A stretch of 64,000 nt of DNA, taken from assembly GCF_009363795.1 (NCBI RefSeq), contig NZ_CP045420.1, positions 2,089,001 to 2,153,000 on the forward strand. Reading direction: 5' to 3'. How positions within the stretch are numbered: the first letter of the stretch is position 1; each line of letters begins with the position of its first letter. Under the pieces are notes generated by a model. That model was not told the origin of the DNA. It was given only the letters and a program-made list of their open reading frames with translations, and searched no databases. This document shows positions 40,411 through 57,540 of the stretch, piece after piece. Source of the stretch: Palleronia sp. THAF1 (GTDB lineage: Bacteria; Pseudomonadota; Alphaproteobacteria; Rhodobacterales; Rhodobacteraceae). The translations under genes and the position numbers were made by a program.

Positions 40411-41462
40411 GGCTTTGTTGCGCAAAGGAGGTGAGGGGCGCACTTCCCCTTTCCCCAGACGCACTTATCCCACGGGCTCGGTGACAGGTATGCCGAGCGC
40501 GGTGTAGCCGTTCAGGACGGCAGCGCGGATCTGGAGCTCGGCGACTTGGCGATCGAAGTCGCGTGCCATGAGGCTCTGCCCCAGCAGCTTCACGCAATGC
40601 ATCTTCGTCTCGGCGCGGCTTCGGCGGTGATAGCCGGTCCATTTTCGCCAGATGGCGCGGCCGAGGTATCTCGAGGCGCGCAGAGCCTCGTTCCGGGCGA
40701 TGGCCCCCGCGGTCGACGGCTTCCACGGCTTGGCGTTCTTGCGTGGCGGTATGACAGCATCGGCGCCGCGGTCGGCGACGGCGTCGTGGCACCTGCGCGT
40801 GTCATAGGCTCCGTCTGCCGTGACTGAGCCGATCTCCACATCAGCGGGGATCTGGTCAAGAAGCTCAGGCAGCATGGGCGCGTCCCCGATGTGGCTACCG
40901 GTGATCTCGATGGCACGGATCTCCAGCGTCTGTTCATCGACACCGATGTGGATCTTGCGCCACAGACGGCGTTTCGCGCCGCCATGCTTGCGCGCATGCC
41001 ACTCGCCTTCGCCCTCGGCCTTGATGCCGGTGCTGTCGATCAACAGGTTCAGCGGTCCCTGCGAGCCGCGGTAGGGGATGGTCACGGCCAAGGTCTTCTG
41101 GCGTCGGCTCAGCGTGCTGAAATCCGGCACCGTCCAGTCGAGGCCGAGCAAGCGGAGCAGGCTCTCAACGAACCCGGTCGTCTGCCGGAGGGCCATGCCG
41201 AAGAGCACCTTCATCGTCAGGCACGTCTGGATCGCGGCATCGCTATACTGCGGCTGCCTGCCTCGCTTTCCGGTTGGCGGTGGCACCCAGACCATGCCCG
41301 GGTCGAACCAGATCGTCAGGGAGCCGCGCTGCTTCAGCGCTTCGTTGTAGGCCGGCCAGTTCTTGGTCTTGTAGGTCGGCGGGATAGGTCTGCTCATCCA
41401 GGCCAGCTACCACACTGGATTCACGAGATGAATCCCTCGCTCGACCTTTGCGCAACAAAGCC
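40411..41462 (-). mobile_element. Intact IS5 family element, IS903-like (1052 bp)
   Basis: Both ends carry the perfect 18-bp terminal inverted repeat GGCTTTGTTGCGCAAAGG (40411-40428 and 41445-41462), close to the IS903 type. One transposase fills the interior. The nine bases flanking each side (CCGCAGACC and GATCGGGAT) differ, so the expected 9-bp target duplication is absent. The right end interrupts an integrase gene. Confidence 0.93.
40465..41397 (-). CDS. IS5 family (IS903 group) transposase
   Basis: A 310-residue DDE transposase that appears intact. It has the N-terminal KTKNWPAYNEALKQRGSLTIWFD block, the first catalytic Asp in LLIDSTGIK, the second in VTADGAYDTRRCHD, and the glutamate-containing YHRRSRAETKMHCVKLLG. 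No internal stops or hairpin inserts, unlike the neighbouring elements. It points toward dctP. Confidence 0.94.
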   Translation of the reverse strand: MSRPIPPTYKTKNWPAYNEALKQRGSLTIWFDPGMVWVPPPTGKRGRQPQYSDAAIQTCLTMKVLFGMALRQTTGFVESLLRLLGLDWTVPDFSTLSRRQKTLAVTIPYRGSQGPLNLLIDSTGIKAEGEGEWHARKHGGAKRRLWRKIHIGVDEQTLEIRAIEITGSHIGDAPMLPELLDQIPADVEIGSVTADGAYDTRRCHDAVADRGADAVIPPRKNAKPWKPSTAGAIARNEALRASRYLGRAIWRKWTGYHRRSRAETKMHCVKLLGQSLMARDFDRQVAELQIRAAVLNGYTALGIPVTEPVG

Positions 41463-42156
41463 GATCGGGATGACCGATGTCGTCGTAGAAGCGCGAAAGC
41501 ATCCCAGAAAGATAGTGGAAATCTTTGTTTGCAGTCTGGCTCGTCTGGCCCTCCGCGGCGATGCGGTCTCGCCACCACTTGCGATGCTGGCGTGCCTCTG
41601 CCGGGCCGATCGAGACTACCGAACGGTCGCCGCCGATCGCCGCCATCAGGTTCTTCACCGCGCGCTTGCGAGGGTTCCGCCACAGTCGCATCTGCTGTCC
41701 ACTCTTGAAGCGGTTGTCGTGAGCGGAGATGGCCTCAACACGGTCCACGAGATCGGACAACCTCAGCTGCGGCTCTTCAGCGCCACCCAAAACGCCCACC
41801 GCCAGTTCGGTATCCGTCGATCCATCAGACCGCTGCGTGGCCTCAACCCGCGCGAGCATTTCCTGCAGCGGTCGCTCGGCGACTTGCGCCGCCGACACGA
41901 ACGAGAACCCGCGCATGTGCGCCAGATCCCGCGCTGCCCGGAAACGCGCTTCCGCATCCCCGTCACGTCCGGCCAGCCGCGCCTCCCACCCTTCGATATA
42001 GCCCGCCCAGACCGCCTCGGCCTTGCCAAGCGCCACGCTTCGTGAATCGGTCTTCAGACTTTCCCACAGAACCGGCCGCGACTCGACGCTCGCGTACCGC
42101 TTCGGCACCCGACGTTTGAGGTAGAAGGTTCGACCGCGAAGTATGACGTTCGACAT
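41463..42156 (-). pseudogene. Truncated tyrosine-type site-specific integrase
   Basis: The first 231 codons of a DUF6538-type phage/island integrase remain: N-terminal arm-binding region (MSNVILRGRTFYLKRRVPKRYASVE) and SAM-like core-binding domain (KRAVKNLMAAIGGDRSVVSIGPAEARQHRKWWRDRI). The frame then runs into the insertion sequence at 41462, and the catalytic domain with R-H-R-Y residues is missing; it is not found on the other side of the insertion. It lies 137 bases downstream of the 3' end of tRNA-Ser, the classic position of an integrase at its attachment site. Confidence 0.85.
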
Positions 42157-42293
42157 GACACATTCCGGCTTTTGGGTAGCAGAATGTGGTGCAGAATGGG
42201 TGGCAGATCAAGGGCGGCTGGGGGCCCTTCGCGGAGAAATAACCCTAAGTACTTGATCTTTAGCGGGCAGTAGAAGTCTGGATAAAGCCTTGG

Positions 42294-42383
42294 TGGCGGA
42301 GAGGAAGGGATTCGAACCCTCGAGACGGTTTCCCGCCTACACACTTTCCAGGCGTGCGCCTTCGACCACTCGGCCACCTCTCC
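42294..42383 (-). tRNA. tRNA-Ser (GGA)
   Basis: A 90-base class II tRNA: acceptor GGAGAGG/CCTCTCC, anticodon GGA in the CTGGAAA loop, long variable arm, GGTTCGAATCC T arm and encoded CCA. It is probably the attachment site for the element whose integrase remnant lies downstream. Confidence 0.96.
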
Positions 42384-42840: not shown

Positions 42841-42978
42841 TAGGGTCAGGACCCATAGCCAAAAGATGACGGTTGCTGCGAGGGCGATGGCTGAGAGGAA
42901 GACCGTGCGGCTTCTGTCGCAGCGGGTGGCGACGCGCCGCCAGTCTTTCAGACGACCGAACATGATCTCGCATCGCCG

Positions 42979-43015
42979 CCCGGCAGGGTTTTGCGAAGCA
43001 AAATTCCGAGAGGGG
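42979..43015 (-). repeat. Palindromic insert element, copy A
   Basis: 37 bases, on the plus strand CCCGGCAGGG then the hairpin TTTTGC-GAA-GCAAAATTCC and GAGAGGGG. It pairs over nine positions with one bulged T and one G-U. It shares both flanks and the length with copy B. Confidence 0.8.
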
Positions 43016-43049
43016 CGGCTGCGCTTTCGGTAGCGGCGCTGGTCCGTTG

Positions 43050-43086
43050 CCCGGCAGGGTCTTGCAAAGCAAGATCCCGAGAGGGG
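43050..43086 (-). repeat. Palindromic insert element, copy B
   Basis: 37 bases, on the plus strand CCCGGCA then GGGTCTTGC-AAA-GCAAGATCCC and GAGAGGGG. Nine pairs with one bulged T. It interrupts the transposase after TPVKY. Confidence 0.82.
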
Positions 43087-43463
43087 TATTTGACCGGGGT
43101 GTCGCGTGACCTCCGACTAGGGATGCAGGGCGTTATCTTCTTGTTGATAAGGCCTTCGCGGAACCAGTCCGCGTCGTAGCCCCGATCTCCCAAGAGCCAG
43201 TCGGCGTTGGGAAGGCTCCCCAGCAGCGCCCTTGCTCCGGTCTAGTCGCTGACCTGTCCCGCCGTCACGAAGAACCGAATGGGCCGCCCACCTGCGTCGG
43301 TAACAGCATGCAGTTTGGTGTTCCGTCCTCGGGCGAAACTGTCCCCGGACAGTTTCTTCACCCCTCGAACCCCTTCGTGCGGCCGATCAGGCGTCCACGC
43401 CCCCCTTTTTCGACCAAAGGCTTGAGGCCGTGCGGTGCGCCTTGAGATACGTCGCGTCCACTG

Positions 43464-43497
43464 CCGGCAGTGGTCTGTAAAGCAAACCACGAGAGGG
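43464..43497 (-). repeat. Palindromic insert element, copy C (diverged)
   Basis: On the plus strand CCGGCA then GTGGTCTGT-AAA-GCAAACCAC and GAGAGGG. The outer stem differs from copies A and B on both sides in a compensating way (GTGG with CCAC instead of GGG with CCC). It interrupts the transposase between NKTISI and DATYL. Confidence 0.75.
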
Positions 43498-43920
43498 ATG
43501 GAGATCGTCTTGTTGTCGGAGGCTTCCGCCGCCAGACCCGCCATTATCCGCGCGAACACGCCCATATCGCTCCACCGCTTCCAGCGGTTGTAGAAGGTCT
43601 TGTGCGGACCGTATTCCTCCGGGGCGTCCCTCCACCGCAAGCCATTCCGATTGATTAAGATAATCCCGCTCAGGACTCGCCGATCATCAACGCGGGGCAC
43701 GCCATGGCTCTTGGGAAAGTAAGGCCGCAGCCGCTCCATCTGAGCCTCGCTCAGCCAGTATAGATCGCTCATCTCGCCCCTTTTCGTTCAGGGGCGGTGA
43801 ATCACGCACGCCGCAGAGCCTCAAGCAGATCACTGGGTCCTGAACCTAAGAAGGAGCAGACGACATGAGGAAAAGCCGTTTCACCGAGGCCCAGATTATC
43901 GGGATGATCAAAGAGCAGGG

Positions 43921-56833: not shown

Positions 56834-57184
56834 ATGGTCGACCTGCTGAATATCGTTTTCGCCCTCCTCTCCATCGGTTTCGGTGCCATCGGCTGGCTGG
56901 CACCGCGCTACACGATGGACATGCTGGACACGAAGGACACCGGCTCGACCATGGGCATTTCAGAGGTACGCGCCGCGTCCGGTGCGCTGTTCGTGGGCCT
57001 TGGCGTAGGTGCATTGCTGATGGGATCGCCTATCGCCTACGCGATGATCGGCTTTGCCTGGGGTGGCGGTGCCGTCGGGCGCGCAACCTCGCTGTTGTTG
57101 GATGGCGTGACGCGCAACAAACTCGTTTTCTTCGCGGTCGAAGCGATCGTCGGCGTGTTGGCAATCTCGATCAACCTGACTTGA
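56834..57184 (+). CDS. DUF4345-like small membrane protein
   Basis: A 116-residue protein with four hydrophobic helices (LLNIVFALLSIGFGAIGWLAP, AASGALFVGLGVGALLMG, IAYAMIGFAWGGGAVGR, VFFAVEAIVGVLAISINL) and the SEVRAASGALFVGLG motif of DUF4345-type proteins. Function unknown. The stop codon overlaps the -35 box of the tmRNA promoter. Confidence 0.75.
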   Translation: MVDLLNIVFALLSIGFGAIGWLAPRYTMDMLDTKDTGSTMGISEVRAASGALFVGLGVGALLMGSPIAYAMIGFAWGGGAVGRATSLLLDGVTRNKLVFFAVEAIVGVLAISINLT

Positions 57185-57209
57185 AATCGCGCGCGGTTCG
57201 GCACATATT
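57181..57209 (+). promoter_or_regulatory. Candidate promoter of the tmRNA gene
   Basis: TTGAAA (-35) and CATATT (-10) are 17 bases apart. Transcription would begin near 57216, a few bases before the acceptor piece. Confidence 0.55.
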
Positions 57210-57225
57210 CGTTGTGTCCTTCGGG

Positions 57226-57540
57226 ACTATGGACATAAACGCGCTCGTAATAAGCGGATCGGACCCGGGGGCGGTACCCGGCGACTCCACCAAATCACCC
57301 ATCGTTGGGGTGCATGGGGTCGAAACAGGATCGACGGACGTCTAAAGGGGTAGCTTTGTCTCGGTGAGGTACCACCGATATCGGTCCGAAAAAGTACAAT
57401 TGCCAACGACAATCGTGCTCCGGTCGCCCTTGCTGCGTAAGCAGTTCGGGATACCGAAACTTAAGTCCTTGCGCCTAGCAGCGTAAGGCGGGGTTCGCAG
57501 GCACCTGGCAACAGAAGCCTGCACTTTCACCCTTTTTTCA
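57226..57540 (+). ncRNA. ssrA: Circularly permuted two-piece tmRNA
   Basis: The acceptor piece comes first and ends CGACTCCACCA at 57292. A spacer to about 57315 follows, then the coding piece begins GGGGTCG at 57316. GGGGTCG pairs fully with CGACTCC (one G-U), rebuilding the alanine-tRNA-like acceptor stem, as in alphaproteobacterial two-piece tmRNA. The coding piece includes GGATCGACGG, the tag frame and a final hairpin GCAGGC...GCCTGC (about 57500-57525) with TTTTTT, which ends transcription near 57540. The exact 5' end of the acceptor piece is estimated. It rescues stalled ribosomes with SmpB. Confidence 0.93.
57402..57440 (+). other. tmRNA proteolysis-tag reading frame (ANDNRAPVALAA)
   Basis: Twelve codons and a TAA stop encode ANDNRAPVALAA. 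The AND... start and LAA end are the hallmarks of SsrA tags recognised by ClpXP. Confidence 0.95.

Follow-up and report, generated by a model that had tools for sequence, protein, structure and literature searches.

Three related palindromic segments lie within one IS5 transposase gene of Palleronia sp. THAF1, and we read them as members of a previously unnamed, non-autonomous mobile hairpin family of ~41 bp; a search of the open-access literature did not find the family described. Its copies are inserted exactly, at a short fixed target and with zero duplication; they keep a conserved shape, recur at the same sites, and are concentrated in transposon genes. This pattern is probably that of non-autonomous hairpins which a trans-acting mover inserts preferentially into mobile DNA and which are lost elsewhere.

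Three inserts in one IS5 transposase gene

The window (the whole 64,000-nucleotide stretch of THAF1 DNA that was analyzed) contains an IS5 element whose transposase gene is a remnant holding copies A, B, and C (Table 1). An initial annotation had recognized the three related copies, and this is confirmed. In shuffled windows neither the end-to-end pattern nor its 20-base core had a match, giving a chance expectation of zero. No family covered the copies in an Rfam search of the window.

Table 1. Coordinates of the host element and its three inserts in the window
Feature	Position	Strand	Evidence
IS5 element, approximate extent	42841..43848	.	bounded by inverted repeat 42841-42855 / 43834-43848, 93% complementary
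IS5-family (ISPam4/IS427-like) transposase remnant holding copies A-C	42855..43772	-	alignment with L101-L106; ORFs
Copy A, 41 bp	42974..43014	+	empty sites in intact ISPam4-group relatives; covariance model E = 8.7e-9
Copy B, 41 bp	43045..43085	+	empty sites in relatives; genome's best covariance model match, E = 6.0e-12
Copy C, 39 bp	43459..43497	+	empty sites in relatives; covariance model E = 4.5e-7

The ends of the copies were defined as gaps of 41, 41, and 39 bp against six plasmid IS5 relatives (ISPam4 and others, L101 to L106). Intact relatives lack an insert at exactly these sites, so the segments are not a natural part of such transposases, and the comparison that had been proposed for fixing the ends and any target duplication yields exact ends and zero duplication. 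The lengths first given (37, 37, and 34 bp) are thus too short, the left ends having been placed 4 to 5 bp inward with the loss of the first bases, CRYT. Alignment with the intact relatives also confirms that the inserts disrupt the gene. The accompanying claim that deletion restores the expected transposase fails: removal of 37 bp leaves the frame unrestored, and the removal of all three inserts still leaves an in-frame TAG where relatives have TAC (GACTAG versus GACTAC), together with a fourth, unrelated palindromic insert, GAAACTGTCCCCGGACAGTTTC, at 43335-43356 within the same IS5.

The transposase is encoded on the minus strand, and its catalytic Glu lies a few codons downstream of copy A. 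The target of copy B reads GGTC/GTATTT (the slash marks the point of insertion), and the unoccupied site of relatives is GTC/GTATTTGAC. Copy C, which adjoins the catalytic Val-Asp codons, lacks a bulged T that is typical of the family, and its outer stem is altered on both arms, as had been noted from the start.

The site of the GAAACTGTCCCCGGACAGTTTC palindrome is also occupied in another THAF1 IS5 (L222), and Ponticoccus alexandrii has a palindrome of this type there as well, lying in frame within an annotated IS5 transposase (L208) and showing compensatory stem changes. An integrase-like gene fragment (41407-42207, minus strand) directly adjoins a tRNA gene (42297-42383), and for this reason the IS cluster of the window is probably part of a genomic island integrated at that tRNA gene. 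The window also contains a tmRNA gene of the alphaproteobacterial permuted type (57177-57525).

Structure of the family

The consensus is C-R-Y-T-G-CCCGGCAG, followed by a hairpin whose bulged T is invariant and then by GAGAGGG. Outside the stem, CRYTGCCCGGCAG is conserved at the left end and GAGAGGG at the right. The stem itself varies (GGGTCATGC, GGGCATTGC, GGCGATTGC, GGCGCATGC, GGGCATCAC, and others), with a 3' arm that always matches. Among 39 distinct 41-mers, 97.4% of the pair cells are paired (73.7% in shuffles) and 71 cells show changes on both sides (20 in shuffles); when the partner is displaced by one to three columns, pairing falls to 27-55%. This strong covariation supports a single hairpin and agrees with the earlier view that a structure rather than a fixed sequence is kept. 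The stem had been described as about nine pairs with a three-base loop. The loop stands; the uninterrupted stem does not, since in most copies an unpaired T that bulges from the 3' arm divides it into an outer part of 3 bp and an inner part of 6 bp next to the 3-nt loop. This T occurs in 55 of 56 distinct 41-mers. Of 88 copies, 69 are 41 bp long, and a second class of 37 to 39 bp, to which copy C belongs, has no bulge.

Additional end hairpins suggested by single-strand folding, CTGC(CCG)GCAG and CCC(GAGA)GGG, were rejected because they show zero compensatory change. Clustering of stem subtypes by genome was not found (p = 0.24, in a sample skewed by the search model). Half-motifs were used to look for a longer autonomous parent, and the matches checked were full elements or chance. 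Two copies run together, GTCCACTGCCCGGCAGTGCATCACGCAGTGATGT-ACTGCCCGGCAGTGCATCACGCAGTGATGTCACGGGAGGGG, at positions 1781-1850 of L200 (THAF1 genome, about 886278-886352), in what looks like a partial duplication or self-insertion of the element.

Insertion sites and mobility

Both the empty IS5 relatives and occupied/empty pairs of IS3 elements show that insertion is exact, without target-site duplication, at CRTC/G. At 112 independent sites from the GTDB and viral scans, the target positions are C (77), R (101), T (90), and C (87) before the insert and G (85) after it; an earlier set of 81 sites agrees with this target. When IS3 copies of G223 and THAF1 are compared (79% raw identity including gaps, about 88% of matched bases), they differ by three lineage-specific gaps, each exactly 41 bp, and share one older insertion.

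The sites occupied in the window are also used in other elements. Site A is reoccupied in L106, L173, L174, L177, and L199, of which L106 is an IS on a Leisingera plasmid whose copy has a different stem. Site B is occupied in another genome (L203), and site C in L171, L172, and L188. The elements in L174 and L177 differ at one base, whereas their ISs are only about 76% alike; repeated insertion is therefore favored over inheritance. As judged from these sequence comparisons, recent mobility of the element is favored.

Location in transposon genes

A Pfam scan of the ORF fragments flanking ~75 copies returned only transposase or transposase-HTH families, including rve, DDE_Tnp_1, HTH_21, HTH_Tnp_1, and IS66. 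As a control, 40 random loci of the same genomes gave over 39 Pfam families, with 2 transposases among the first 25 listed. In an independent set of 136 copies from pattern scans, 111 adjoin known IS proteins (tblastn). About 15 of the remaining 25 lie beside transposon or integrase genes recognized by Pfam (Tn3, IS30-like [rve], IS6/IS240, IS630-like [DDE_3], IS110, IS256 [Mutator], IS91, IS21 [IstB], IS5, IS66, and integrase), and a few more were recognized by eye. At least 127 of the 136 copies are thus in or beside transposon genes, which belong to a dozen unrelated families. The initial annotation had offered two possibilities, frequent insertion or a preference for the host sequence. The bias toward transposase genes goes well beyond what it supposed and is not limited to one IS group.

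The confinement is not absolute. Clear exceptions are a RelE toxin gene (on two contigs) and one intergenic site between selB and a redoxin gene, and three members of the 136-copy set (L258, L263, and L321) have no gene-context assignment. By eye, copies antisense to the transposase outnumber sense copies about two to one. Copies in L087, L274, L300, L355, and L364 share an insertion position (flank AGGGCCAGCGG) that lies immediately beyond the transposase end of IS110-like elements, and the IS110 domain was confirmed in L300 and L355; this site may lie near a possible guide-RNA-encoding region.

Consequences for host elements

The usual length of 41 bp is not a multiple of 3, and the inserts shift the reading frame and break the transposase. 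Three of them interrupt an otherwise single 399-codon IS3 frame in L084 (read after splicing them out). Since this frame is intact once spliced, insertion there outpaced ordinary decay. An IS5 with two inserts is present in G048 as three 100% identical copies at different places of one contig/replicon. It also carries a Trp-to-stop change and therefore moved in trans, not through bypass of the inserts, a role that was rejected for this element because of the nonsense codon.

Distribution

A 20-base search allowing ≤3 mismatches found 14 places in the THAF1 genome, several of which are clear copies. A covariance model built from ten copies found 23 copies in this genome at E <= 0.001 and about 24 altogether, so the motif does occur elsewhere, a point on which the initial annotation had staked its interpretation. 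With the same model, 8 of 14 genomes of the genus proved to have copies, as did 79 of the 296 Rhodobacteraceae genomes sampled. Only 2 of about 380 genomes from the rest of the class have the element; outside the family, G411 has two copies in an IS3 and G585 has one in an IS91 transposase. An exact-pattern scan of GTDB genomes gave at least 120 stretches, and among the matches listed nearly all are from Rhodobacteraceae or Rhodobacterales. Exact copies were also seen on two contigs (L326 and L329) of the actinobacterial assembly Enemella evansiae TN21-6, where they may represent horizontal transfer or contamination. A BLAST search of plasmids returned 70 records, and the matches listed are from Rhodobacterales. 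Four IMG/VR contigs have copies, and the phage records searched have zero.

Candidate mobilizers and proposed mechanism

The comparisons above show that the element enters as one exact block directly 3' of CRTC and before G, and that its ends and bulged-T hairpin are maintained while the letters of the stem drift in pairs. In the mechanism that we propose, an enzyme supplied in trans would recognize the hairpin by its shape and mobilize it, most likely in single-stranded form, much as HUH transposases (IS200/IS605 or RAYT/REP) act, an analogy suggested by the structured end, the tetranucleotide target, and the absence of duplication. A simple version of this proposal is weakened by the absence of a Y1 transposase (PF01797) or RAYT from the THAF1 genome, which is the most copy-rich, and by the finding of neither Y1 nor Y2 (PF04986) in G275 (20 copies) and G087 (11 copies). 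No mobilizer was found, and both of these were rejected because neither is in all of the high-copy genomes. Y1 and the element tend to occur together (15 of 26 versus 64 of 270 genomes; p = 7e-4), a tendency that may simply reflect an abundance of mobile DNA in those genomes. The Y1 genes of L107 to L116 are not flanked by element ends, and the single neighboring copy is in L109.

The near-confinement of the element would most likely result from preferential insertion into mobile DNA, reinforced by the loss of other insertions. An insert inactivates the transposase, and an IS so disabled can still be moved in trans, taking its hairpin with it. A 5-base target that is common everywhere fails to explain the targeting of unrelated transposases. 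As to why transposons are struck, insertion into transposition intermediates is our preferred speculation. It may be, and we advance this tentatively, that the element is a parasite of parasites, with insertion machinery specific to mobile DNA (for example, IS transposition intermediates or single-stranded IS DNA), such that one 41-bp element silences transposases of all families and rides between genomes.

Alternative explanations

Insertion could also be random at CRTC/G and survival biased, copies in useful genes and intergenic DNA being purged and those in dead or dispensable ISs being kept. Several host ISs do have other lesions, as in the window IS5 and the G048 IS5 with its stop codon, many insertions per IS fit a build-up in dead DNA, and rare copies do occur elsewhere, in the RelE gene and at the intergenic site. 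However, random loci are rarely in transposase genes (about 2 with 40 loci; 25 families listed), against at least 127 of 136 copies, and retention alone has to account for the near-emptiness of other DNA that is also dispensable, namely, intergenic DNA and hypothetical and phage genes. The three-insert IS3, which becomes one 399-codon frame after splicing, likewise acquired its inserts faster than ordinary decay. We find random insertion with biased survival possible but doubtful. A host or plasmid might instead direct the hairpins into active ISs as a weapon against transposases. Nearly all copies are in transposon genes, enzymes of the DDE, Mutator, IS110, HUH (IS91), and Tn3 types are covered, the 41-bp length is frame-breaking, and some host ISs are otherwise intact. 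Such a device is nonetheless improbable, given that a non-systematic search found no linked defense gene, that up to three copies occur per IS although one suffices, that disabled ISs still multiply in trans, and that we know of no guiding feature common to these unrelated genes.

A short palindrome with a structure-specific irregularity and tagged ends, without terminal repeats, is also what an element of the REP/RAYT type would look like. REPs, tagged by GTAG or CGTC, are dispersed palindromes of 20 to 40 bp that are presumed to be mobilized in trans and are mostly extragenic, although intragenic cases are known, some of them in repair genes (PMC3733652). The present copies are nearly all in transposon genes, are inserted exactly at CRTC/G, and have CRYTGCCCGGCAG and GAGAGGG as their tags; the end GTAG is found at 0 of 112 sites, and CGTC precedes the insert at only 17 of 112, as part of the CRTC target. 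With no RAYT in the most copy-rich host, membership in the GTAG or CGTC superfamily is unlikely. Even less probable is a silent insert that is removed or bypassed during expression, as with the byp hairpins of yeast mitochondria, leaving the transposase functional. ISs that hold two or three inserts occur in several copies, and excision yields an intact frame in some cases, but nonsense codons are present in the multicopy IS of G048 and in the window IS (TAG), copies occur in both orientations, and exact excision ranked as the best frame in just 31 of the 66 cases (by a longest-ORF test that is noisy in GC-rich DNA).

Comparison with other small mobile elements and significance

Rickettsia palindromic elements are about 100 to 150 bp and lie in frame within host proteins. 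They resemble the present family as palindromic inserts in coding genes of Alphaproteobacteria, and they differ from it in that the family is 41 bp long, breaks the frame, lies in transposases, and has another sequence. The ends of IS200/IS605 elements (IS608 and ISDra2) and their PATE-like derivatives would be analogous in having a hairpin read by shape, insertion 3' of a tetranucleotide, and zero duplication; here, in contrast, there is one hairpin in 41 bp total, THAF1 has no tnpA (Y1), and a full-length parent was not found. MITEs are likewise short, non-autonomous, and multicopy, whereas this family has neither terminal inverted repeats nor, at its empty sites, target duplication. The byp hairpins and the GC clusters of fungal mitochondria are also tiny mobile hairpins within genes, although the present elements are bacterial and confined to transposases, with no sign of bypass.

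Known small bacterial palindromes avoid genes or occupy host genes, whereas nearly every copy of this family is in a transposase gene, and the genes concerned are of a dozen unrelated kinds. Even if retention alone is responsible, the element is a precise marker of IS inactivation, it accounts for many broken transposases in Rhodobacteraceae annotations, and its occupied and empty sites can be used to measure the mobility of a mini-element. If it is a parasite of parasites, it would amount either to a hyperparasite or to a brake on transposons throughout the genome. Targeted insertion would mean that bacteria harbor an element which exploits and inactivates transposons generally, and why it recognizes mobile DNA would become testable.
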